DNA from: an uncultured Collinsella sp.
Lineage (GTDB): Bacteria > Actinomycetota > Coriobacteriia > Coriobacteriales > Coriobacteriaceae
Reading direction: 5' to 3'
NCBI GenBank assembly: GCA_902491415.1
Contig: CABUHP010000080.1
Location: 1 to 7,626, forward strand
Length of the DNA stretch: 7,626 bases
Shown: positions 1 through 7,626 of the stretch, piece by piece
How positions within the stretch are numbered: the first letter of the stretch is position 1
How the letters are laid out: every line of letters starts with the position of its first letter
Made by a program: the position numbers and the translations under genes
The notes under the pieces: generated by a model
Seen by the model: the letters and a program-made list of their open reading frames with translations, nothing else
The model's database searches: none
What the model was told of the DNA's origin: nothing

Positions 1-314
1 CGCTCGAGCTCGAACGCGTCGAGGATGGCCGCGCGTTTAACATCAATCCCGCCGGCCTCAACAAGGGCGTTGCCATCGCACGTTTCTGTGAGCACCTGGG
101 TATCGAGCGCGAGGAGACGCTGGCGCTCGGCGATTCCGAGTCCGACTTCTACATGGCTGACCACGTGGGCACGTTCTGCCTGGTCGAGAACGGTTTGACC
201 AGCGCCGGCGCGCCCGAGTTCCTGGATGCTTGCGATAACGCCTACGTCACGCGCGGCAAGATTGTCGATGGCTGGGCGGCAACGGCAGAGTTGCTCGTCG
301 CGGCCCGTTCGTAG
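1..314 (+). CDS. HAD-superfamily hydrolase (Cof/sucrose-phosphatase-like), 3' part only
   Basis: The left edge cuts this gene; about 103 C-terminal codons are visible, read from base 3 to the TAG at 312-314. Two HAD phosphatase motifs are present. A Lys in the stretch NINPAGLNKGVAIA (Lys codon 63-65) matches motif III, and GDSESDFYMA (Asp codon 132-134) matches motif IV, which binds Mg2+. The spacing and the pattern of Lys followed by a helix resemble the class IIB (Cof-type or phosphoglycolate/sucrose-phosphate phosphatase) branch, which hydrolyses small phosphorylated metabolites in the cytoplasm. The nucleophile motif DxDxT and the cap domain lie outside the window, so the substrate cannot be inferred. 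The gene ends 53 bases before murI on the same strand. No terminator is evident in that gap, so co-transcription with murI is possible. Confidence 0.85.
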   Translation, partial: LELERVEDGRAFNINPAGLNKGVAIARFCEHLGIEREETLALGDSESDFYMADHVGTFCLVENGLTSAGAPEFLDACDNAYVTRGKIVDGWAATAELLVAARS

Positions 315-367
315 CGCGCCCCTATCGTTCTGAGCCATATCTTTTCGAGAGAGAATCTGGTGAGGTA

Positions 368-1252
368 ATGTCCGATATCGAGAATCCGGCAGGCGACACG
401 CGCCCGATTGGCGTGTTCGATTCTGGTCTGGGCGGTCTGACGGTTGCACGCGCGATTGCGACGGCGTTGCCGCACGAGTCCGTCTACTACTTTGGCGACA
501 CCAAGCGCTGCCCCTACGGCACCCGCACCGAGGACGAGGTGCGCTCGTTTGCACTGCAGGCGGGCCGTTGGCTGTCGAAGCACGACGTCAAGATCATGGT
601 CATCGCCTGCAATACGGCGACCGCTGCGGCCTTGCGTTTGGCCCAGCAGGTGCTCGACGTCCCCGTCATCGGTGTGATCGCACCGGGCGCCCGCGCGGCA
701 ATCAACAGCACCCGCACGCGCCGGGTGGGCGTGCTCGCCACCAACCTCACCATTCGCTCAGGCGCTTACACACGTGCCATTCAGGACCTGGATGCCGGCG
801 TCGACGTATACGGCTGCCCTGCCTCGAGCTTTGTCGAGGTCGTTGAGCACGAGCTCGCCTCGGGCGCACATCTGCAAGAGCAGTGGCTCGAGAACGAGGA
901 CATCTTTGATACGCCTGCCGTACGCGCGCTGGTCGGCGCCACGGTTGAACCGCTGCGCGACCACGGCATCGATACCGTGGTACTCGGCTGCACGCATTTT
1001 CCGCTGCTCGTGGGACCTATTCGCCATGCGCTGGGTCCCGGAGTGCGCGTGGTGAGCTCCGCCGAGGAGACCACGCGTGAGTTGACCGATATTCTCACGC
1101 GCCGCGAGCAGCTGGCGGGCGACGCAGCCGAGCCGCAGCATCGTTTTGCAACGACGTCCGATAACATTGCCGAGTTTGCGGTGGCGGGCAGTTTTATCTT
1201 TGGCCAGCCGCTCAAGAGCATTGAGCATATCGATATCGACGAACTGAAATAG
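368..1252 (+). CDS. murI: glutamate racemase
   Basis: MurI interconverts L- and D-glutamate without a cofactor and supplies D-Glu for the peptidoglycan stem peptide in the cytoplasm. The 294-residue product fits the family (about 260-290). The N-terminal GVFDSGLGGLTV has the conserved Asp (D18). The first catalytic Cys is C81 in ACNTATAAAL and the second is C208 in GCTHFPLL, followed by H210. These are the paired acid/base cysteines of the two-base mechanism. The family signature after the first Cys is usually CNTAS/CNTAT, so the active site looks intact. The ATG is preceded by GGTGAGG (359-365) at a short spacing of 2 bases, while a purine run further upstream (347-353) may help. The order murI, rph, rdgB is a recurrent bacterial neighbourhood (for example the racE-rph-ysnA region of Bacillus subtilis), which supports the assignment. 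Confidence 0.97.
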   Translation: MSDIENPAGDTRPIGVFDSGLGGLTVARAIATALPHESVYYFGDTKRCPYGTRTEDEVRSFALQAGRWLSKHDVKIMVIACNTATAAALRLAQQVLDVPVIGVIAPGARAAINSTRTRRVGVLATNLTIRSGAYTRAIQDLDAGVDVYGCPASSFVEVVEHELASGAHLQEQWLENEDIFDTPAVRALVGATVEPLRDHGIDTVVLGCTHFPLLVGPIRHALGPGVRVVSSAEETTRELTDILTRREQLAGDAAEPQHRFATTSDNIAEFAVAGSFIFGQPLKSIEHIDIDELK

Positions 1253-1307
1253 ATACAAGGTCACCGACCAAAGGCTCACGTTCACCTTTTGCCGAAAGGA
1301 TTTTTCC

Positions 1308-2033
1308 ATGGAGTATATGCAGGTCAATCGCGCCAACGGCCGCGCCGCCGATGAGCTGCGCCCCATCAAGCTTACTCGCGGCGTCATGAAACACGCCCAC
1401 GGTTCGTGCCTGGCCGAGTTTGGCGATACTCACGTGCTGTGCGCCGCCACCATCGAGGAGGGCGTGCCGGGCTGGCGCAAGGGCGCCAAGGCCGGTTGGG
1501 TAACGGCGGAGTACGCCATGCTGCCGGCATCGACCGGCAAGCGCTGCAAGCGCGAGCATGCCAGCCGTAAGGGCCGCTCCATGGAGATCGAGCGCCTCAT
1601 CGGTCGCAGCCTGCGTACCGTCGTCAACATGAAGGCACTCGGCGAGTACACCGTTACCGTCGACTGCGACGTGATTCAGGCAGACGGCGGCACACGAACG
1701 GCGAGCATTACCGGCGCCTGGGTGGCACTGCACGACGCCCTTGCCATGTGGGTCGAGGCGGGTAAGCTCGAGCGCATCCCGCTCACGGGCCAGGTCGCCG
1801 CGATTTCCATGGGCGTTGTCGACGGCAACACCCTGCTCGACCTGGATTATTCCGAGGACAGTCACGCCGAGGTCGACATGAACCTTGTCGCCACCGATAC
1901 CGGTGAGATGATCGAGCTCCAGGGTACTGGCGAGCAGGCACCCTTCGACCGCAAGCGCCTCAATTCCCTGCTCGATTTGGGCGACAAGGGCATTGCCGAG
2001 CTCATCGAGCTCCAGCGCCAAGTCCTCGCCTAA
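1308..2033 (+). CDS. rph: ribonuclease PH (phosphorolytic 3'-5' exoribonuclease)
   Basis: RNase PH removes nucleotides 3' of the CCA end of tRNA precursors using phosphate and releases nucleoside diphosphates; the active form is a ring hexamer. The 241-residue product has the family's full length. Visible signatures are NGRAADELRPIKLTRG near the N-terminus, EFGDTHVLCAATIEEGVP, GWVTAEYAMLP, GRSMEIERLIGRSLR (with the phosphate-binding Arg), QADGGTRTASITGA, and DLDYSEDSHAEVDMN with the acidic residues D178 and D184. The start at 1308 is chosen because AAAGGA (1295-1300) lies 7 bases upstream; the next ATG (1317) would be 16 bases away. One oddity is that the segment after MLP reads ASTGKR. Family members such as E. 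coli have Arg right after MLP, and the loop here is about two residues shorter. It lies 55 bases after murI with no clear terminator between. Confidence 0.97.
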   Translation: MEYMQVNRANGRAADELRPIKLTRGVMKHAHGSCLAEFGDTHVLCAATIEEGVPGWRKGAKAGWVTAEYAMLPASTGKRCKREHASRKGRSMEIERLIGRSLRTVVNMKALGEYTVTVDCDVIQADGGTRTASITGAWVALHDALAMWVEAGKLERIPLTGQVAAISMGVVDGNTLLDLDYSEDSHAEVDMNLVATDTGEMIELQGTGEQAPFDRKRLNSLLDLGDKGIAELIELQRQVLA

Positions 2034-2040
2034 CCTGCAA

Positions 2041-2141
2041 AAAAGGGACAGGTTTATTTTGGCAGGTTTTATCTGCGGAAACGCCGATAGATAAGGTTGA
2101 TGCCACATGAAAGGGGAGACGCCGACAGACCGGTCCCTTTT
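2041..2141. repeat. inverted-repeat element between rph and rdgB (MITE/REP-like or structured leader)
   Basis: The segment is bounded by a 12-base inverted repeat with one mismatch: AAAAGGGACAGG at 2041-2052 and CCGGTCCCTTTT at 2130-2141. Its interior is AT-richer than the flanking genes. It holds a small hairpin (GCAG 2062-2065 with CTGC 2073-2076) and a degenerate direct repeat (ACGCCGATAGAT at 2081-2092 and ACGCCGACAGAC at 2119-2130). A second copy of the arm, AAAGGG at 2110-2115, could pair with the same right arm CCCTTT (2135-2140), giving two competing folds. The T-run at the right end on the + strand and the mirror T-run on the - strand mean it could act as a terminator in either direction. 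No reading frame of its own and no clear target-site duplication are visible. Whether it is a dispersed repeat cannot be judged from a single copy. Confidence 0.45.
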
Positions 2142-2162
2142 ACGTGACTTTGCTATACGGAC

Positions 2163-2169
2163 AAGGAGG
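2163..2169 (+). promoter_or_regulatory. ribosome binding site that fixes the rdgB start
   Basis: AAGGAGG is a near-perfect Shine-Dalgarno sequence 6 bases before the ATG at 2176. It decides against the in-frame upstream ATG at 2107, which lies inside the inverted-repeat element and has no comparable site. Confidence 0.9.
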
Positions 2170-2175
2170 CCACTC

Positions 2176-2817
2176 ATGGCACTTGAGAAGATCGACATCG
2201 ACACCCTCGACCCGGCAGCGACCATCGTCGTGGCAACGGGCAACGCCCATAAGCTCACCGAGATCGAGGCCATTTTGGGCAAGGTTATGCCCGAGGTTCG
2301 CTTTGTGGCGCTCGGCCAGCTGGGCGATTTTGAGGACCCCGAGGAAAACGGCACGACGTTTTTGGAGAACGCCATCATCAAGGCCCAGGCTGCGGTGGAG
2401 GAGACGGGCCTTATGGCCATTGCCGACGATTCGGGCCTGGTCGTCGACGCGCTGGATGGTGAGCCCGGTGTGTATAGCGCGCGCTACGCGGGCGTTCACG
2501 GCGACGATGCCGCCAACAATGCCAAACTGCTCGTGAATCTGGAGGGCGTGGCCGACGAGGACCGCACTGCGCGCTTTATGAGCGTCGTCGCGCTCATCGA
2601 CACGGACGGTTTGGTCACCTATGGTGAGGGTGCCTGCGAGGGCGTTATCGCACACGAGGGCCGCGGCGATCACGGCTTTGGCTACGACCCGCTGTTCCTG
2701 CCGGTCGACACGCCGGGCAAGACCATGGCCGAGCTGACGGCGGACGAGAAGAACGCCATCAGCCATCGTTTCCACGCGCTCGAGCATCTGTCCGCCAAAC
2801 TGACGGGCGAGGAGTAG
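2176..2817 (+). CDS. rdgB: dITP/XTP pyrophosphatase (RdgB/HAM1 family)
   Basis: This enzyme hydrolyses ITP, dITP and XTP to monophosphates plus pyrophosphate, which keeps deaminated purines out of DNA and RNA. The 213-residue product matches the family (about 195-210) apart from a short N-terminal extension of some 15 residues. The motifs occur in order: ATGNAHKLTEI (residues 20-30) with the nucleotide-binding TGNxxK; ENGTTFLENAIIKA; ADDSGLVVDAL with the catalytic Asp (D85), then GVYSARYAG; HEGRGDHGFGYDPLFLP (160-176); and SHRFHAL (196-202), which reads the purine base. All key residues are present. An in-frame ATG at 2107 would add 23 residues unlike the family and lacks a good ribosome site, so 2176 is preferred. 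The TAG is three bases from the GTG of dtd, implying a shared transcript and coupled translation. Confidence 0.96.
   Translation: MALEKIDIDTLDPAATIVVATGNAHKLTEIEAILGKVMPEVRFVALGQLGDFEDPEENGTTFLENAIIKAQAAVEETGLMAIADDSGLVVDALDGEPGVYSARYAGVHGDDAANNAKLLVNLEGVADEDRTARFMSVVALIDTDGLVTYGEGACEGVIAHEGRGDHGFGYDPLFLPVDTPGKTMAELTADEKNAISHRFHALEHLSAKLTGEE
2809..2814 (+). promoter_or_regulatory. ribosome binding site for dtd, embedded in the rdgB C-terminus
   Basis: GAGGAG is formed by the two final Glu codons of rdgB and lies 6 bases before the GTG at 2821. It supports the GTG start and ties dtd translation to that of rdgB. Confidence 0.8.
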
Positions 2818-2820
2818 GCC

Positions 2821-3267
2821 GTGCGTGCGGTGGTGCAGCGCGTGCTCAACGCCGGCGTGACGGTAGACGGCGAGTGCGTGGGCAAAATTGGGCGCGGCTA
2901 TCTGGTGCTGCTGGGCGTGGGCCACGGCGACACGCGCGCCGAGGCCGATAAGCTGTGGGGAAAGCTCCGGGGCTTGCGCATTAACGAGGACGAGAACGGC
3001 AAGACCAACCTGGCACTTGCCGATGTCGACGGCGAGGTTCTCGTGGTGTCGCAGTTCACGCTGTTCGCCGATTGCCGTCACGGCCGCCGTCCATCGTTTA
3101 CGGATGCCGGCGCCCCCGATGTCGCCAACGAGCTCTACGAGTACTTCCTGACGCTCGTTCGCCAAGATGTCGAACACGTGGCGCACGGCATCTTTGGCGC
3201 CGATATGAAAGTCGATCTCGTCAACGACGGCCCATTCACCATCGTCTTGGATACCGATAGTCTGTAA
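2821..3267 (+). CDS. dtd: D-aminoacyl-tRNA deacylase (DTD)
   Basis: DTD is a cytoplasmic homodimer that cleaves D-amino acids (and glycine mischarged on tRNA-Ala) from tRNA, a chiral proofreading step. The 148-residue product has the family's usual length of about 145-150. It begins [18 protein letters not shown], the typical first strand. Both signature motifs are present: SQFTLFAD (residues 77-84), and NDGPFTI (135-141), which holds the Gly-cisPro dipeptide (G137-P138) that excludes L-amino acids. Most members have Val rather than Phe after that Pro, a conservative change. The start is GTG, fixed by the Shine-Dalgarno at 2809-2814 and by alignment to the family N-terminus. It is the last gene of the murI-rph-rdgB-dtd run. 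No strong terminator follows; there is only an unpaired-looking T-run at 3289-3294. Confidence 0.96.
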
Positions 3268-3300
3268 GTAGTCAATTTGGGACCGGGCTTTTTTAGCTAC

Positions 3301-3330
3301 TTGCGTATGGCCACAACAGGGTGCTATAGT
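3301..3330 (+). promoter_or_regulatory. predicted sigma70-type promoter of veg-ispE
   Basis: A -35-like TTGCGT (3301-3306) and a -10-like TATAGT (3325-3330) are separated by 18 bases. The -10 is preceded by TGC, an extended -10 element. Transcription would start near 3337 and give a leader of roughly 60 bases before veg. This is the best promoter match in the 130-base gap between dtd and veg. Confidence 0.55.
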
Positions 3331-3350
3331 ATTAGAGTTTTGTCTATCTT

Positions 3351-3370
3351 AGGGGTATTATCCCCTTTTT
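3351..3370 (+). terminator. small hairpin plus T-run in the veg leader (possible attenuator)
   Basis: AGGGG (3351-3355) and CCCCT (3362-3366) can form a 5-bp stem around a 6-base loop, followed directly by T residues up to 3370. It sits between the predicted promoter and the veg ribosome site. The stem is short, so efficient termination is doubtful; partial attenuation or a 5' stabilising hairpin are alternatives. Confidence 0.3.
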
Positions 3371-3384
3371 GAATTGCACCTTCT

Positions 3385-3389
3385 GGAGG
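3385..3389 (+). promoter_or_regulatory. ribosome binding site that fixes the veg start
   Basis: GGAGG lies 8 bases before the ATG at 3398. The upstream in-frame TTG at 3374 has no such site and would translate through this Shine-Dalgarno sequence, so the ATG is chosen. Confidence 0.85.
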
Positions 3390-3397
3390 CCCTGTTC

Positions 3398-3694
3398 ATG
3401 GAAGAGATGGAAGTCAATCACGTCGACGACATCCACGAGAAGCTGACCGATATGGTGGGCGATCGCGTTAAGGTGAAGGCCAACATGGGCCGCACCCGCG
3501 TCGTCGAGCGCATGGGCACCATCAAGAGCGTCCATCCGGCAGTCTTTATCGTCGAGGTCGACGAGCGCCGTGGCCGCAAGTCGCGTCAGTCCTACCAGTA
3601 TATTGATGTTCTCACCGGCCAGGTCGAGTTGTTCGATCCCGAGAGCGGCGAGCACATTTTTACCCCGCTCGGCAATCAGCTCGAGGAGCACTAG
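3398..3694 (+). CDS. veg: Veg family protein (DUF1021)
   Basis: This 98-residue protein resembles Bacillus subtilis Veg (86 residues), which is reported to stimulate biofilm formation by opposing the SinR repressor; its biochemical role is otherwise poorly defined. The recognisable core is GDRVKVKANMGRTRVVERMGTI (split here as residues about 22-43), with the Arg-rich KANxGRxxxxERxG pattern. It is followed by VHPAVFIVEVD and by SYQYIDVLTGQVEL, which matches the family's SYxYxDxLTxxVEL ending. The fold expected is a small SH3/Sm-like beta barrel. It is strongly charged with no signal peptide or membrane segment. The veg-ispE order is conserved in Firmicutes, which supports the call. The SinR pathway may not exist in this organism, so function cannot be transferred beyond the family name. 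Confidence 0.92.
   Translation: MEEMEVNHVDDIHEKLTDMVGDRVKVKANMGRTRVVERMGTIKSVHPAVFIVEVDERRGRKSRQSYQYIDVLTGQVELFDPESGEHIFTPLGNQLEEH
3683..3688 (+). promoter_or_regulatory. ribosome binding site for ispE, embedded in the veg C-terminus
   Basis: GAGGAG, formed by the Glu-Glu codons near the end of veg, lies 8 bases before the GTG at 3697 and supports that start and translational coupling. Confidence 0.8.
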
Positions 3695-3696
3695 CG

Positions 3697-4593
3697 GTGA
3701 CCGATTGGTCCCTGACCCTTTCCGCGCCGGCAAAGATCAACCTCTATCTAGGGGTTCATACCGAGCGTGACGACCGCGGCTACCATAAGGTCGATTCCCT
3801 GATGGCAGCCGTCGGTCTTGTCGATACCGTGACGGTTACGCCGGCACAGGCGCTGACCGTCCAGACGATTCCGATATCCGACTTTCCCATGCAAAAGAAT
3901 ACGGCGTATCGTGCTGCGCTCGCTATGGCCGAGCATTATGGTCGTGAAGCCAGCGTCTGCATCACGATCGAGAAGCGCATCCCGTTGTGTGCCGGCCTGG
4001 GCGGTCCTTCGACGGATGCCGCGGCGGTCATTGTCGCCTTGGCAGAGCTGTGGGGTATCGACCGTGCCGATTCCGCGCTGGACAACATCGCACGCGGCAT
4101 TGGCGCTGACGTTCCCTTCTTTTTGCATGCCAGCCCTGCATTTTACGTGGGTGGGGGAGACGTGCTGGCAACCGAGTACCCCGCACTACCCGCGACACCC
4201 GTCGTGCTGGTCAAGCCGCGCGAGGCAAGCGTTTCAACAATTGAAGCCTATCGACGTTTTGACGAGACCCCAGCGCCTGCGGACAAGCCCGGAGCGATCG
4301 CATCTGCCCTTCGCTCGGGAGACGCAGAGGCGGCCTACGCGCTCGTCCACAACAACCTGGGTGTCATTTCCGCGCAGATGGAGCCGCGGATTCAAACGGT
4401 GCTTGACTGGCTTCGTTCACAGGACGGTACCATTGCCGCAAATGTGTGCGGTTCGGGTGCCTGCTCGTTTGCCATTTGCGATACTGCCGCCACGGCAGTC
4501 AATCTTGCGACAGCCGCTCAACAAAACGGCTGGTGGGCTTATGCAACGGAGCTCGTTTCCGACACGGTTCGCATTGAAGCGCCAAAGAAGTAA
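3697..4593 (+). CDS. ispE: 4-diphosphocytidyl-2-C-methyl-D-erythritol kinase
   Basis: IspE phosphorylates the 2-hydroxyl of CDP-methylerythritol with ATP, the fourth enzyme of the MEP (non-mevalonate) isoprenoid pathway. The 298-residue product is a GHMP kinase of normal length. Motif 1 is SAPAKINLYLGV (residues 9-20) with the catalytic Lys K13. The ATP-phosphate loop is PLCAGLGGPSTDAAA (96-110), and GIGADVPFF has the catalytic Asp D138. The C-terminal GHMP motif is VCGSGACSFAI. The phosphate loop departs from the usual GLGGGSS/GLGGSS form by having Pro-Ser-Thr (P104-S105-T106). It starts with GTG two bases after the veg stop codon, with its Shine-Dalgarno inside veg, so it is probably co-translated. 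The start is supported by the family N-terminus, which places the PAKINL motif about ten residues in. No hairpin terminator is visible before the tRNA gene 49 bases later. Confidence 0.96.
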   Translation: MTDWSLTLSAPAKINLYLGVHTERDDRGYHKVDSLMAAVGLVDTVTVTPAQALTVQTIPISDFPMQKNTAYRAALAMAEHYGREASVCITIEKRIPLCAGLGGPSTDAAAVIVALAELWGIDRADSALDNIARGIGADVPFFLHASPAFYVGGGDVLATEYPALPATPVVLVKPREASVSTIEAYRRFDETPAPADKPGAIASALRSGDAEAAYALVHNNLGVISAQMEPRIQTVLDWLRSQDGTIAANVCGSGACSFAICDTAATAVNLATAAQQNGWWAYATELVSDTVRIEAPKK

Positions 4594-4601
4594 AAATTTC
4601 T

Positions 4602-4631
4602 CTGGCACACGACGGAAATCTTTGTTACTAT
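4602..4631 (+). promoter_or_regulatory. possible promoter of the tRNA-Pro gene
   Basis: CTGGCA (4602-4607) and TACTAT (4626-4631) each match the sigma70 consensus at four of six positions and are 18 bases apart. Transcription would begin a few bases before the mature tRNA 5' end at 4643. An overlapping TATAGT (4629-4634) is an alternative -10. The tRNA may also be co-transcribed from veg-ispE. Confidence 0.35.
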
Positions 4632-4642
4632 AGTCGAGCTAA

Positions 4643-4719
4643 CGGGTTGTGGCTCAGTTTGGTAGAGCACTGCGTTCGGGACGCAGGGGTCGCTGGTTCA
4701 AATCCAGTCAACCCGACCA
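4643..4719 (+). tRNA. tRNA-Pro (anticodon CGG)
   Basis: A complete 77-base cloverleaf is visible. The acceptor stem pairs CGGGTTG (4643-4649) with CAACCCG (4709-4715), all seven pairs Watson-Crick. The D arm has a GCTC/GAGC stem (4652-4655, 4665-4668) around a 9-base loop with GG. The anticodon stem is CTGCG/CGCAG with loop TTCGGGA, giving anticodon CGG at 4677-4679, which reads CCG proline codons. The variable loop is GGGTC and the T arm contains TTCAAAT. Discriminator A4716 and an encoded CCA (4717-4719) finish the molecule. C1:G72 with A73 fits bacterial tRNA-Pro. It is a single tRNA gene between ispE and tatA, with its own terminator. Confidence 0.97.
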
Positions 4720-4730
4720 GAGCATGAGGA

Positions 4731-4758
4731 GGGACCGCTTCTTGCGGTCCCTTTTTTT
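4731..4758 (+). terminator. rho-independent terminator after tRNA-Pro
   Basis: A perfect 8-bp stem pairs GGGACCGC (4731-4738) with GCGGTCCC (4744-4751) around the loop TTCTT. Seven T residues (4752-4758) follow. It begins 12 bases after the tRNA CCA and separates the tRNA from the tatA promoter. Confidence 0.93.
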
Positions 4759-4766
4759 AGCTATTG

Positions 4767-4795
4767 TTGTGATACCGCGATACCCGCGGTATACT
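4767..4795 (+). promoter_or_regulatory. predicted sigma70-type promoter of tatA
   Basis: TTGTGA (4767-4772, four of six matches) and TATACT (4790-4795, five of six) are separated by exactly 17 bases. This is one of the best promoter matches in the window. Transcription would start near 4802, leaving a leader of about 30 bases before tatA. It sits just after the tRNA-Pro terminator, so tatA has its own promoter. Confidence 0.65.
4772..4792. promoter_or_regulatory. palindromic putative operator inside the tatA promoter
   Basis: ATACCGCG (4772-4779) and CGCGGTAT (4785-4792) form a perfect 8-base inverted repeat with a 5-base spacer. The spacer itself reads ATACC, so ATACC half-sites occur at 4772 and 4780 and an inverted one (GGTAT) at 4788, each 8 bases apart. 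The palindrome fills the space between the -35 and -10 elements, where a bound dimeric regulator would block or remodel RNA polymerase binding. The regulator is not identifiable from the sequence. A small RNA hairpin is unlikely because the site lies upstream of the predicted start. Confidence 0.45.
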
Positions 4796-4821
4796 CATTC
4801 GAGCTTGTCTCGCTGTATTGT

Positions 4822-4826
4822 GGAGG
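4822..4826 (+). promoter_or_regulatory. ribosome binding site that fixes the tatA start
   Basis: GGAGG lies 5 bases before the ATG at 4832. Upstream in-frame starts would read back through the promoter, the terminator and the tRNA and are not credible. Confidence 0.88.
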
Positions 4827-4831
4827 TCTAC

Positions 4832-5107
4832 ATGTTTGGACTGAGGGCTCCTGAGCTCATCATTATTCTCGTCGTTGTCCTGATTATCTTTGGGCCCAAG
4901 AACCTGCCGAAGCTCGGCAAGTCCCTCGGCTCTACCGTCAAGAATATCCGCGAGGGTATGGAGGGCGACGATAAGGGCGAAACCAAGCAGGCCGAGGACG
5001 TTGTGGTCGAGGAGTCCAAGGAGGACAAGGAGATCGCAGAGCTCGAGGCCAAGCTCGCTGCTGCCAAGCAAAAGAAGGCAGAGGACAGCGACGCGGACGC
5101 AGAGTAG
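4832..5107 (+). CDS. tatA: twin-arginine translocase subunit TatA/TatE family
   Basis: TatA polymerises in the cytoplasmic membrane to form the pore-like element through which folded proteins with twin-arginine signals cross, working with TatC. The 91-residue protein has the expected layout. A short periplasmic N-terminus, MFGLRAPEL, carries the conserved Glu E8. A single membrane helix spans about residues 9-20 ([12 protein letters not shown]). The FGP hinge at 20-22 leads to an amphipathic helix ([20 protein letters not shown]). The C-terminal tail is strongly charged, with Glu/Lys-rich heptad-like sequence (about 50-85), probably flexible or weakly coiled-coil, and a very acidic end. No tatB or tatC is adjacent. 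Members with such a short tail can act as TatA or as a bifunctional TatA/B. It is flanked by its own promoter and terminator, so it is likely a single-gene unit. Confidence 0.95.
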
Positions 5108-5132
5108 TCCCATCCCTTTGGGGTGAGCACCT

Positions 5133-5165
5133 GACCGGCTTGCCCGCAGGCTAGCCGGTCTTTTT
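5133..5165 (+). terminator. rho-independent terminator after tatA
   Basis: GACCGGCT (5133-5140) pairs perfectly with AGCCGGTC (5153-5160). The 12-base intervening sequence can partly fold as well. TTTTT (5161-5165) follows. It starts 26 bases after the tatA stop codon. Confidence 0.85.
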
Positions 5166-5173
5166 CGTTTTTG

Positions 5174-5200
5174 TTGACAGTTGATCGTTACATCATAGTT
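5174..5200 (+). promoter_or_regulatory. possible greA promoter (perfect -35, weak -10)
   Basis: TTGACA at 5174-5179 is a perfect -35 hexamer, directly after the tatA terminator and before greA. The -10 is unclear. CATAGT (5194-5199) resembles it, but the spacer would be only 14 bases, and at 16-17 bases the match is poor. A promoter for greA is needed here because of the upstream terminator, but its exact position is uncertain. Confidence 0.35.
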
Positions 5201-5214
5201 GGGGAGATATCCGT

Positions 5215-5685
5215 ATGGACGCAAGCCAGATCGTACTGACCGCTGAGGGCCGCCAGAAGCTCGTCGAGGAGCTCGCTTGGCGTGAGGGCGATTACGCCAA
5301 GGAGATCGTCGAGGACATCAAGGAAGCCCGCGCGTTCGGCGACCTTTCGGAGAACTCCGAGTACGATGCCGCCAAGGACAAGCAGGCCCAGAATGCTGCT
5401 CGCATCGCCGAGATTCAGGCTATTCTCGCCAACGCCCAGGTTGCTGCCACCACGGGTGATCTGACCGTCTCCATCGGTTCCACCGTTTCGTTGATTGATC
5501 CCAACGGTGAGGTCATAGAGGTCACGCTTGTCGGTACCACCGAGACCAACTCGCTCGAGCACAAGATCTCCAACGAGTCTCCGGTCGGCCACGCCATCAT
5601 TGGTCATGGCGAGGGCGACTCCGTCGAGGTCGTTACGCCTTCCGGCAAGACTCGCGTCTACACCATCGCCAAGATCGCACGCTAG
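5215..5685 (+). CDS. greA: transcription elongation factor GreA
   Basis: GreA enters the secondary channel of backtracked RNA polymerase and stimulates cleavage of the extruded RNA 3' end, which rescues stalled complexes. The 156-residue product has the family's length (about 155-160). The N-terminal coiled-coil hairpin spans about residues 1-75. Its tip reads ARAFGDLSENSEYDAAKDKQ, with the acidic pair D43 and E46 that holds the catalytic Mg2+. The C-terminal FKBP-like domain ends with SPVGHAIIGHGEGDSVEV and KTRVYTIAKI, typical of the family. GGGGAG (5201-5206) lies 8 bases before the ATG and sets the start. It precedes lysS by 78 bases on the same strand, and a hairpin with a T-run in that gap may limit read-through. 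Confidence 0.97.
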   Translation: MDASQIVLTAEGRQKLVEELAWREGDYAKEIVEDIKEARAFGDLSENSEYDAAKDKQAQNAARIAEIQAILANAQVAATTGDLTVSIGSTVSLIDPNGEVIEVTLVGTTETNSLEHKISNESPVGHAIIGHGEGDSVEVVTPSGKTRVYTIAKIAR

Positions 5686-5713
5686 ACCACGGTCCCGCGT
5701 AAAGGTATGTTTT

Positions 5714-5746
5714 CGCTCCCTGGGACCGAATCCTGGGGAGCGTTTT
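5714..5746 (+). terminator. terminator-like or attenuator hairpin between greA and lysS
   Basis: CGCTCCC (5714-5720) pairs with GGGAGCG (5736-5742), with TTTT at 5743-5746 and more T after one AG. The loop can extend the stem through GGGA (5722-5725) with TCCT (5731-5734), one pair being G-T. The same loop contains GGGACCG (5722-5728), fully complementary to CGGTCCC just after the greA stop (5690-5696). Two folds are therefore possible. It may be the greA terminator, or a leader element that sets lysS expression. Confidence 0.55.
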
Positions 5747-5763
5747 AGTTTGAGGAGCTAACT

Positions 5764-7626
5764 ATGGCAGAAAACCAGAACGCCGCCGATCAGGCATCGA
5801 CGCTCAACGACGAGCGCGCCACTCGCCTGGCCAAGCGTGCCTCCCTGTTCGAGGCGGGCCAGAACCCGTATCCCGAGCACTCCGAGATTGAGGACTACGT
5901 CGTCGACATCGAGACTAAGTATGCCGAGCTCGCCGATGGCGAGGACACCGAGGACGTCGTGAAGATCGGCGGCCGTGTGGTCGCCAAGCGCGGTCAGGGC
6001 AAGATCATGTTCATCGTCGTGCGCGACGCGACCGGCGAGATCCAGCTGTTCTGCCGTATCAACGATATGGACGAGGCCGCCTGGAACACGCTCAAGGCAC
6101 TCGACCTGGGCGATATCCTGGGCGTGACCGGTGTAGTCGTGCGCACCAAGCGTGGCCAGCTTTCCGTTGCCCCCAAGAGCGCGACGCTGCTGTCCAAGGC
6201 CGTTCGCCCGCTGCCCGAGAAGTTCCACGGTCTCTCCGACAAGGAGACTCGCTATCGTCAGCGCTATGTCGACCTGATCGCCAACGACGACGTTCGCGAG
6301 ACCTTCCGCAAGCGCTCGCAGATTCTCTCCACGTTCCGCCGCTTTATGGAGTCCGATGGCTACATGGAGGTTGAGACCCCCATCCTGCAGACCATCCAGG
6401 GCGGAGCTACTGCCAAGCCGTTCATCACGCACTTCAACGCGCTCGATCAGGAGTGCTACCTGCGTATTGCCACCGAGCTGCACCTCAAGCGCTGCATCGT
6501 CGGCGGCTTTGAGCGCGTGTTCGAAATCGGTCGTATCTTCCGCAACGAGGGCATGGACCTTACCCACAATCCCGAGTTCACCACGATGGAGGCCTACCGC
6601 GCCTTCTCCGATCTCGAGGGCATGAAGGCGCTCGCCCAGGGTGTCATTAAGGCCGCTAACAAGGCTATCGGCAACCCCGAGGTCATCGAGTATCAGGGCC
6701 AGACTATCGACCTGTCCGGTGAGTGGGCAAGCCGCTCCATGACCGATATCGTCTCTGACGTGATTGGTAAGCAGGTCACCATCGACACGCCGGTTGAGGA
6801 GCTTGCTGCCGCCGCACGCGAGAAGGGCCTGGAGATCAAGCCCGAGTGGACCGCCGGCAAGATCATCGCCGAGATCTATGACGAGCTGGGCGAGGACACC
6901 ATCGTCAACCCCACCTTCGTGTGCGATTACCCCATCGAGGTTAGCCCGCTTGCCAAGCGCTTTGAGGATGACCCGCGCCTGACCCATCGCTTTGAGCTGG
7001 TCATCGCCGGCCACGAGTACGCGAACGCGTTCTCCGAGCTCAACGACCCGGTCGACCAGGCCGAGCGCTTCGCTGCCCAGATGGCCGAGAAGGCCGGCGG
7101 CGACGACGAGGCCATGGAGTACGACGAGGATTACGTGCGCGCCCTCGAGTACGGTATGCCTCCCGCGGGCGGCATTGGCATCGGTATCGACCGCGTGGTC
7201 ATGCTGCTCACCAACCAGGCTTCCATCCGCGACGTGCTGCTGTTCCCGCACATGAAGCCCGAGAAGGGTTTCCAGTCCGGTGCCGCTGCTGCCAAGGCTG
7301 CCGAGGCCGGCAACACCGCGAGCCCCTTCGTCAAGCCCCTCAAGCCCACGGTCGATTATTCCAAGATTGCCGTCGAGCCGCTGTTTGAGGAGTTCGTCGA
7401 CTTCGATACCTTCTCTAAGAGCGACTTCCGCGCCGTGAAGGTCAAGGCATGCGAGGCCGTCAAGAAGTCCAAGAAGCTGCTGAACTTTACGCTCGATGAC
7501 GGTACCGGCACTGACCGTACCATTCTCTCCGGCATCCATGAATACTATGAGCCCGAGGACCTGGTCGGCAAGACCCTGCTCGCCATCACCAACCTGCCTC
7601 CGCGCAAGATGATGGGTATCCCCAGC
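5764..7626 (+). CDS. lysS: class II lysyl-tRNA synthetase with C-terminal tRNA-binding (Trbp111/EMAPII-type) domain, 3' end cut by window
   Basis: LysRS charges tRNA-Lys with lysine. The frame stays open for 621 codons to the window edge. GAGGAG (5752-5757) lies 6 bases before the ATG. The N-terminal OB-fold that binds the anticodon covers about residues 66-140 (VKIGGRVVAKRGQGK, then FIVVRDATGEIQLFC). Class II motif 1 is near 192-208, motif 2 at about 249-279 (FERVFEIGRIFRNEG and THNPEFTTMEAY), and motif 3 at 470-490 (GIGIGIDRVVMLL). A usual LysRS ends soon after DVLLFPHMKPE, near residue 500. This one continues through an Ala/Gly/Pro-rich linker (about 503-533). It then enters a second OB-fold with the hallmarks of the MetRS C-terminal domain: DFDTFSKSDFRAVKV, KKSKKLLNFTLDDG, ILSGIHEYYEPEDLVGKT and NLPPRKMMGIPS. 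That domain would end roughly 30 residues beyond the window. The core signatures are all intact; the fusion is the oddity. Confidence 0.97.
   Translation, partial: MAENQNAADQASTLNDERATRLAKRASLFEAGQNPYPEHSEIEDYVVDIETKYAELADGEDTEDVVKIGGRVVAKRGQGKIMFIVVRDATGEIQLFCRINDMDEAAWNTLKALDLGDILGVTGVVVRTKRGQLSVAPKSATLLSKAVRPLPEKFHGLSDKETRYRQRYVDLIANDDVRETFRKRSQILSTFRRFMESDGYMEVETPILQTIQGGATAKPFITHFNALDQECYLRIATELHLKRCIVGGFERVFEIGRIFRNEGMDLTHNPEFTTMEAYRAFSDLEGMKALAQGVIKAANKAIGNPEVIEYQGQTIDLSGEWASRSMTDIVSDVIGKQVTIDTPVEELAAAAREKGLEIKPEWTAGKIIAEIYDELGEDTIVNPTFVCDYPIEVSPLAKRFEDDPRLTHRFELVIAGHEYANAFSELNDPVDQAERFAAQMAEKAGGDDEAMEYDEDYVRALEYGMPPAGGIGIGIDRVVMLLTNQASIRDVLLFPHMKPEKGFQSGAAAAKAAEAGNTASPFVKPLKPTVDYSKIAVEPLFEEFVDFDTFSKSDFRAVKVKACEAVKKSKKLLNFTLDDGTGTDRTILSGIHEYYEPEDLVGKTLLAITNLPPRKMMGIPS

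Follow-up and report, generated by a model that had tools for sequence, protein, structure and literature searches.

In a co-crystal structure, the Trbp111-type OB fold captures the 3′ CA of tRNA through contacts that include K33, R75, S82, M85, and F78; F78 stacks on C75, and tRNA binding is nearly lost in the R75A variant (PMC11286949; here and below, statements with a PMC number draw on the accessible part of that source). This family (PF01588) is represented by Aquifex Trbp111 (PDB 1pyb) and by the C-terminal domain of bacterial MetRS (metG_C_term, TIGR00399). On lysyl-tRNA synthetase (LysRS), a C-terminal EMAPII-like domain has been described in Entamoeba (PDB 4up7, 4up8), whose LysRS was in 2011 the sole known one of this type and whose domain has been proposed to be a copy of that on its own MetRS (PMC3226552). 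The lysS gene itself is a known insertion site for integrative elements, including vanD elements (PMC10765050, PMC8301612) and streptococcal integrative and conjugative elements (PMC4701971). We describe here the lysS gene of an uncultured Collinsella sp., which runs to the end of a 7,626-nt stretch of DNA (contig CABUHP010000080.1, positions 1 to 7,626, forward strand; hereafter the window) and encodes a LysRS fused to a Trbp111/EMAPII-type OB domain.

By profile, the domain shares its fold family with Trbp111, together with equivalents of K33, R75, S82, and M85. It differs in being fused to LysRS, in having Met instead of Phe78 and Ile77, and in the loop signature N[LI]PPRxMMGxxSCGM of its subfamily; binding is predicted. 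The MetRS C-domain belongs to the same Pfam family and occupies the same place after a synthetase core, whereas the complete LysRS-linked domain of the nearest genome compared (G001; G-numbers denote genomes and L-numbers loci) stays below the metG_C_term cut-off (105.6 vs 116.65 bits) and R75 is missing in 11 of 12 Bacillota MetRS C-domains. Entamoeba is a eukaryote, and its domain matches the LysRS-linked subfamily weakly (6.8e-9). The lysS-targeting elements insert with a repeat that is found at the joint of this fusion, whereas the window, which ends inside the gene, shows no element and the accessible parts of the three sources make no mention of an element-supplied tRNA-binding domain. 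Already known, then, are the OB fold, the use of lysS as a target for insertion, and a single precedent from a eukaryote; in the open-licence papers searched, we recognized no description of a bacterial LysRS with this domain. What would be new, if it holds, is that integrative elements carry a tRNA-binding domain and install it on LysRS. Our preferred reading, at a probability of roughly 0.6, is that the OB domain is a module that in gut Clostridia is located at the lysS attachment site, carried by elements and brought by them to Collinsella as well, where it captures the tRNA 3′ CA.

A LysRS with a C-terminal tRNA-binding OB domain

The first-pass annotation of this DNA, made from the letters alone, had read a class II LysRS core followed in the same frame by a tRNA-binding OB domain, so that the core has an OB fold for tRNA on either side. 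Both the reading and the domain order are borne out by matches to PF01336, PF00152, and PF01588, the last of which lies past residue 540 (residues 556-621; 1.8e-14, 54 bits, cut-off 27) and is cut off by the window end at position 67 of the 96-position profile. Residues 14-501 score 603 bits on the NCBIfam model lysS_bact (TIGR00499; cut-off 427.6). G001, which is 98.2% identical over the 621 residues of the window LysRS, encodes a 654-aa LysRS in one frame, with PF01588 at 556-652 (2.9e-22, 79 bits), and window DNA 5003-7626 matches Collinsella aerofaciens NZ_OY725717.1 at 94% identity. Because the whole frame is found in G001 and in many Coriobacteriales genomes, the fusion is real and neither a product of chance nor a frameshift artefact; a sequencing frameshift is ruled out by the complete frame in many genomes. 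An AlphaFold2 model of a Collinsella homologue (L057; 52 sequences) has a mean predicted local distance difference test score (pLDDT) of 82.6, with the C-terminal domain at ~71-90 from residue 551. The top 50 listed matches in a structure search with the AlphaFold2 model were all LysRS cores, and the search is therefore uninformative on the OB domain.

By its sequence, the domain is a member of a LysRS-linked subfamily, and its distribution is patchy across Coriobacteriales and gut Clostridia. In the genome tallies made with the OB profile and with the HD profile described below, frame length stands for fusion; in fetched loci the sequences themselves were read. Among the matches listed for the order of G001 (395 genomes, with families coded f1, f3, and f5), those of f1 span the whole fusion except in G172 and G370, and full-length matches are patchy in f5 and f3. 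With the OB profile, a single match per genome was obtained for 48 members of a mostly f5 set of 80 genomes and for 19 of 79 f3 genomes. The matches lie in frames of at least 640 aa in 43 and 13 genomes of the two sets, respectively, and in frames of 112-223 aa in 4 and 6; G276 gave a weak OB match of another kind in a frame of 683. Across 396 Actinomycetota genomes, the 24 rows extending past residue 600 among the matches listed all belong to this order. Evenly drawn Clostridia yielded a LysRS match in 138 of 147 genomes, with the domain run through in 14, or 13 of 137 when the centre is left out. A scan across GTDB gave at least 584 relatives of the OB domain, the best 80 of which comprised 64 in-frame LysRS fusions, 16 frames without a LysRS core, and no MetRS; informative titles came from Coriobacteriia, Clostridia, and other Bacillota, including the erysipelotrichial genus Faecalicoccus. 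Since the scan patterns for these 80 loci included R75 and the MMG motif, independent samples drawn by LysRS or Pfam match were used for residue conservation.

The earlier statement that this is not the standard bacterial LysRS design therefore stands, given 13 of 137 clostridial LysRS and 24 listed actinobacterial rows from one order; that the extension is standard in bacterial LysRS is ruled out by the clostridial and actinobacterial surveys. Domain order, flanking OB folds, and unusual design were thus all correctly called from the letters, unlike a recent capture from metG, discussed below. The first-pass annotation did not mention the Entamoeba precedent, the occurrence of the domain across gut Clostridia, or the element attachment site at the joint.

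LysRS can also carry a second type of C-terminal module, an HD-domain putative phosphohydrolase of ~193 aa that weakly matches PF01966. It is fused to the LysRS C-terminus in 7/7 loci read (L037, L038, L039, L040, L042, L045, and L046, from f3 and f5), is part of a frame of 713 aa or more in 57 of 79 f3 genomes, and occurs in the order LysRS-HD-OB in some genomes, e.g., G111, G210, and G354; a protein search found LysRS-HD in Olsenella as well. A separate HD gene ~140-220 nt downstream of lysS in G221, G237, and G127 is plausibly a step toward fusion. Two LysRS matches were found in G240. Several LysRS from f5 genomes of genera g45, g69, g87, and g104 (including G252, G207, G073, G163, G125, G236, G180, and G385) are ~78-85% identical to that of Collinsella, compared with 60-65% for other fused f5 LysRS, which suggests transfer of the entire lysS gene.

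The joint and the lysS attachment site

The insertion site of vanD elements in lysS was conserved in all 36 sequences compared, and the 13-bp repeat TTCCC[gac]AC[ag]ATGA has been reported for these elements (PMC10765050); repeats of this kind have also been reported for vanD islands (PMC8301612). In clostridial fusions, the joint between LysRS core and OB domain coincides with this known attachment (att) site of lysS-targeting integrative elements, and the exact published repeat stands at the joint in 38 of 56 distinct Bacillota fusions. The commonest coriobacterial joint, found in 9 of 27 fusions, is TTCCCGCACATGA, identical to window 7243-7255. Standalone OB frames begin at the same place: the five open reading frame (ORF) starts that were read encode M-K (M-K-S-L, M-K-P-T, M-K-P-M), matching the LysRS continuation past F-P-T, and each is preceded by the end of the att core; the DNA there, TTCCCGACAATGA and variants, equals the published 13-bp repeat.

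DNA identity between fused genes jumps at the att site. For GAM79 and G889, identity is 74% over the 300 nt that precede it and 99-100% over the 450 nt that follow, then 97% in the next 150 nt and finally 73 and 53%. L067 displays the same jump against both; the lysS cores of the three genomes are 69-72% identical to one another, but from the att site onward their DNA agrees at 99-100%. Blautia and 1XD42-54 are 73% identical before the site and 98, 100, and 88% after it, with letters differing right up to TTCCC. A weaker jump was observed between GAM79 and L175 (62% before; 76, 90, and 91% after).

Integrases accompany several of the OB frames without a LysRS core. Nine of these 16 frames have at least 300 nt upstream, and in 7 of the 9 the OB frame follows the end of an integrase ORF at a distance of 105-171 nt; all 6 complete integrases are of the Tn916 type (PF00589 + PF02920). 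Eight coreless frames (L088, L089, L093, L106, L117, L121, L122, and L127) lie less than 400 nt from a contig end, as is expected beside repeats.

A 17.4-kb mobilizable element stands between two OB copies inside lysS of G841. The gene order is greA, lysS-OB, SSB, MmeI-type restriction-modification, AIPR, MobA/MobL relaxase, Toprim/DnaB-like, RelB/ParE-like genes, a Tn916-type integrase (that of L096), the second OB, and a sigma-factor-like gene, with the att cores TTCCCGACAATGA and TTCCCGACGATGA ~17.4 kb apart by their coordinates. With respect to its att site, the first OB copy is placed towards the element, whereas the second is placed away from it. The first was therefore presumably supplied by the element, and the second would be the earlier lysS end. 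In both G841 and G284, an integrase stands next to a direct repeat within lysS, and the 3′ end of the gene is displaced. With its MmeI-type restriction-modification system, AIPR protein, and RelB/ParE pair, the G841 element is also a small defence island. GAM79 retains a decayed second OB ~9 kb past lysS-OB, with no integrase in the stretch read. Behind lysS-OB of G889 are genes that we take to be glyoxalase-, zinc-ribbon-, ParA-, and ParB-like, and behind that of G846 are presumably zinc-ribbon-like and ParA-like genes. The zinc-ribbon-like gene found behind lysS-OB in G889, G846, and L098 also occurs behind standalone OB frames (L066 5205-6593, L132 4244-5536), as would be expected of elements arranged in tandem at lysS.

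Viral and plasmid records were searched with the OB domain by tblastn. The phage search returned 12 records, four of them unannotated faecal "Bacteriophage sp." entries at 64-79%. The three best (L227, L228, and L229; short, virus-fraction records) all lack a LysRS core; one has a Tn916-type integrase, one a ParB-like gene (36%), and one neither. In MT839044.1, an unannotated faecal "Bacteriophage sp.", an integrase (62% identical) is followed 320 nt on by the OB domain, with no LysRS core in the 4.1 kb upstream of it. Ten plasmid records were retrieved, with identities of at least 60% in four large ones, where the match is lysS (2), metG (1), or unannotated (1). These four were taken as chromosomal.

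Since elements in related gut bacteria insert at the joint and appear to carry the domain, the OB likely arrived as mobile cargo, and we infer that elements caused its spread. In the proposed mechanism, a Tn916-type tyrosine integrase would recombine the element at codons F-P-x-M near the lysS 3′ end, and the DNA just inside the element end would continue the lysS frame with linker and OB domain. The essential lysS gene would stay intact and gain the OB, and its old 3′ end would be displaced to the integrase side. Later loss of the element would leave the fusion in place, as we believe was the case in Collinsella.

Table 1. Features of the window and of two related loci (nucleotide positions refer to the window unless a locus or contig is named; residues are those of the window LysRS)
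Feature	Position	Strand	Basis or remark
greA, directly 5′ of lysS	5215..5685	+	ORF; name from 94% match in Collinsella aerofaciens NZ_OY725717.1
lysS, LysRS + C-terminal tRNA-binding OB domain	5764..7626	+	Open at window end; 621 of ~654 codons
N-terminal anticodon-binding OB fold, residues 66-142	5959..6189	+	PF01336, 8.7e-18
Class II catalytic core, residues 159-498	6238..7257	+	tRNA-synt_2 PF00152, 4.5e-86
TTCCCGCACATGA, codons F-P-H-M, integrative-element insertion position in other lysS genes	7243..7255	+	
Low-complexity linker, predicted disordered, residues 501-529	7264..7350	+	AlphaFold2 pLDDT <50 in homologue L057
tRNA_bind OB domain (Trbp111/EMAPII-type), first 66 residues, 556-621	7429..7626	+	PF01588; complete in relatives
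K571, equivalent of Trbp111 K33	7474..7476	+	Site list from PMC11286949 (accessible part)
R614, equivalent of Trbp111 R75	7603..7605	+	Site list from PMC11286949 (accessible part)
M617, equivalent of Trbp111 F78, Met for Phe	7612..7614	+	
S621, equivalent of Trbp111 S82	7624..7626	+	M85 equivalent lies past the window end
Full-length relative of lysS	L036 1785-3749		ORF
G841 mobilizable element inside lysS	C32 ~69052-86480 (L197, L198)		

Upstream of lysS, three clostridial loci (L198, L199, and L200) also have ORFs that we take to be greA-like. Elsewhere in the window, a tRNA-Pro (CGG) gene at 4643-4719 overlaps the start of a mechanical ORF (4649-5107) that contains tatA.

Predicted role of the OB domain

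The first-pass annotation attributed to this domain binding of the tRNA elbow without sequence preference, a view outdated by the co-crystal structure with its 3′ CA capture (PMC11286949). Equivalents of K33, R75, S82, and M85 are kept in 12/12 core-sampled clostridial and 13/13 coriobacterial fusions, a set drawn by LysRS or Pfam match and not by residue motifs. At the R75 position, the C-domains of MetRS from 12 Bacillota genomes have Ala (10), Val (1), or Arg (1). Because the four equivalents are kept and R75 is lost in 11 of the 12 MetRS C-domains, the OB domain probably captures tRNA 3′-CA ends, and in those 12 genomes it seems to be the LysRS-linked domain, not the MetRS one, that keeps the 3′-end grip. 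When the window is compared with four Collinsella relatives, nonsynonymous divergence (dN) in the OB is 0.005-0.007 at a synonymous divergence (dS) of 0.29-0.37; the domain is therefore under constraint. As judged from these residues and the linker, the OB is expected to act as a flexibly tethered grip that would keep tRNAs close to LysRS by their terminal CA and raise effective tRNA affinity, with a possible kinetic benefit.

The domain might instead be functionally neutral cargo that merely restores an open frame after insertion and leaves LysRS little changed. We regard this as rather unlikely, although LysRS ordinarily lacks the domain, four codons past the site suffice to close lysS of G284, and the analogous Entamoeba domain has a limited role (PMC3226552). 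Neutrality accords poorly with the low dN relative to dS, with full conservation of four contact side chains, and with persistence of the OB in Collinsella without a visible element.

Route into Collinsella and competing origins

Evidence for transfer across phyla comes from the divergence of the two parts of the fusion. Between clostridial (core-sampled) and coriobacterial fusions, mean identity is 48.7% in the core and 76.7% in the OB; within Coriobacteriales, the values are 66.9% and 77.4% (a comparison that leaves out the class centre, L167). OB identity follows core identity with a rank correlation of only 0.17-0.32 in loci chosen by core, and it depends little on core identity in loci chosen by OB similarity as well. 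The OB data reject the core tree, with a log-likelihood (lnL) difference of 121.7 and a p-value in the approximately unbiased (AU) test of 3e-7. Within Eggerthellaceae, lysS of G284 is interrupted at the homologous codons by an 8.5-kb element whose integrase is of the type described above, and the site is therefore a target in Coriobacteriales. The G284 gene is closed as FPHMRNEA-stop, four codons past the site, and its displaced end reads FPHMRNEAL-stop. G384, of the same genus code, has a LysRS-OB with the clostridial-style joint LLF-PTMKPL, instead of the FPHMRNE of its relatives, and with the exact published repeat; its OB falls in a supported clade (Shimodaira-Hasegawa-like approximate likelihood ratio test, 96) with clostridial OBs, apart from seven other Eggerthellaceae. 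The lysS core of G384 (L056) contains an in-frame TAG, from either an assembly fault or a broken gene. The domain may well have the same element origin throughout Coriobacteriales.

Several observations weigh against the preferred reading. The exact published repeat is present at the joint in only 1 of 27 coriobacterial fusions, and the window joint fits it at 10 of 13 letters. Collinsella showed no element at lysS-OB; the Tn916-type integrase clade was found at E ≤ 1e-70 in 1 of 80 Coriobacteriales genomes, namely G284, and G001 has no member at this threshold. The G284 element brings no OB at lysS. Collinsella lysS is a mosaic produced by ordinary recombination, with a recent break near nt 780 and not at the att site, and a test for site-specific exchange among Collinsella genes gave no sign of it. 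With no element in Collinsella, a G284 element without OB, and the break near nt 780, an element route into Collinsella is something we infer. No such integrase was found in the stretch read beside two of the nine testable standalone frames (L119, L126) or beside the coriobacterial ones (L017, L027, L028, L201, and L203-L207). The element markers tested were seen in only 1 of 49 scan fusions with at least 2.5 kb downstream, and most fusions therefore stand without such element signs. In the tree tests, 3 of 4 equal-length core pieces used as controls also reject the core tree at 0.05 (differences 24-68); AU tests on 124 columns are therefore liberal, and weight is put on the size of the difference. 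For Coriobacteriales alone (lnL difference 38.9, p 0.0135) and Clostridia alone (48.8, p 1.6e-4), the differences are no larger than those of the controls. Monophyly of the coriobacterial OB was not rejected (p-AU 0.21; 0.26 for six Coriobacteriaceae) in a test that leaves out near-copies. On the functional side, the F78 equivalent is Met in 25/25 fusions, and the Entamoeba domain plays a limited role in aminoacylation (PMC3226552), so the effect of the OB may be small.

Some of these points would fit an ordinary fusion, in which a standalone Trbp-like gene joined lysS independently in Coriobacteriales without elements. Standalone copies do occur there (G195, G040, G223, G261, G119, G229, G097, G235, and G248, with at most one profile match each, like the fused genomes), no integrase lies near those read, and the lysS 3′ end acquires domains in other ways too, to judge from the HD domains fused to it and the HD genes next to it. 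An independent event would not be expected to place the joint at the same codons as in Clostridia or to leave OB identity across phyla equal to that within the order, and we consider it unlikely.

Still less probable is that LysRS-OB is old, vertically inherited, strongly constrained, and lost many times. Constraint is evident from 75 of 123 alignment columns at ≥90% identity (86 rows) and from the low dN, and the monophyly result is compatible with this history. Vertical descent is opposed by 99-100% identical DNA from the att site despite diverged cores, by the slight dependence of OB identity on core identity, and by the presence of the fusion in only 13 of 137 clostridial LysRS.

The capture from metG proposed in the first-pass annotation is unsupported as a recent event. 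Scores on metG_C_term are 110.6 bits for Blautia L074, 109.2 for standalone L066, and 86.4 for the window piece, all, like that of the whole G001 domain, below the cut-off. MetRS retains its own C-domain in 12 Bacillota genomes that have LysRS-OB (11 Clostridia and Faecalicoccus), and the LysRS-OB profile matches these C-domains at 1.5e-24 to 6.3e-19, compared with ~1e-60 to 1e-74 for standalone and LysRS-fused copies. The same annotation had suggested checking MetRS for loss of its own domain. The MetRS of G001, a 547-aa frame, is indeed without PF01588, which in that genome occurs in LysRS and in an 820-aa frame, presumably PheT; this says nothing about the donor, because other orders of the class also have at most one PF01588 match per genome. 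Recent capture from the MetRS C-terminus thus appears highly improbable: a shared Pfam family, best PDB profile matches of the OB to MetRS C-domains and Trbp111, and 105.6 bits near the cut-off speak for it, against no MetRS among the best 80 of at least 584 GTDB-wide loci and the far more distant MetRS C-domains, 11 of 12 without R75, of the very genomes that have LysRS-OB. The 105.6 bits make an old common origin with MetRS C-domains plausible, and we still regard such an origin as likely.

Returning to the preferred reading, a more speculative extension, which we put forward tentatively, is that an element family bolts its own tRNA-gripping domain onto the host LysRS at each integration, serving the element or the host, and that Collinsella kept the gift and lost the giver. 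An essential synthetase of gut Clostridia and Coriobacteriia would then be re-equipped by mobile DNA. Within that extension, and just as tentatively, the domain might, for example, shield or recapture the ends of tRNA-Lys when tRNA-cutting toxins attack them or while conjugation takes place.

For elements that insert at gene ends, the target is usually assumed to remain unchanged. In this case, the evidence suggests that elements remodel an essential tRNA synthetase at its C-terminus and pass a ready-made tRNA-binding domain between gut bacteria from two phyla, which would change how the known lysS hotspot for vanD insertion is viewed. Relatives with and without the OB, together with a MetRS domain in the same genome that lacks the key arginine, constitute a natural experiment on an appended 3′-end-binding OB fold.

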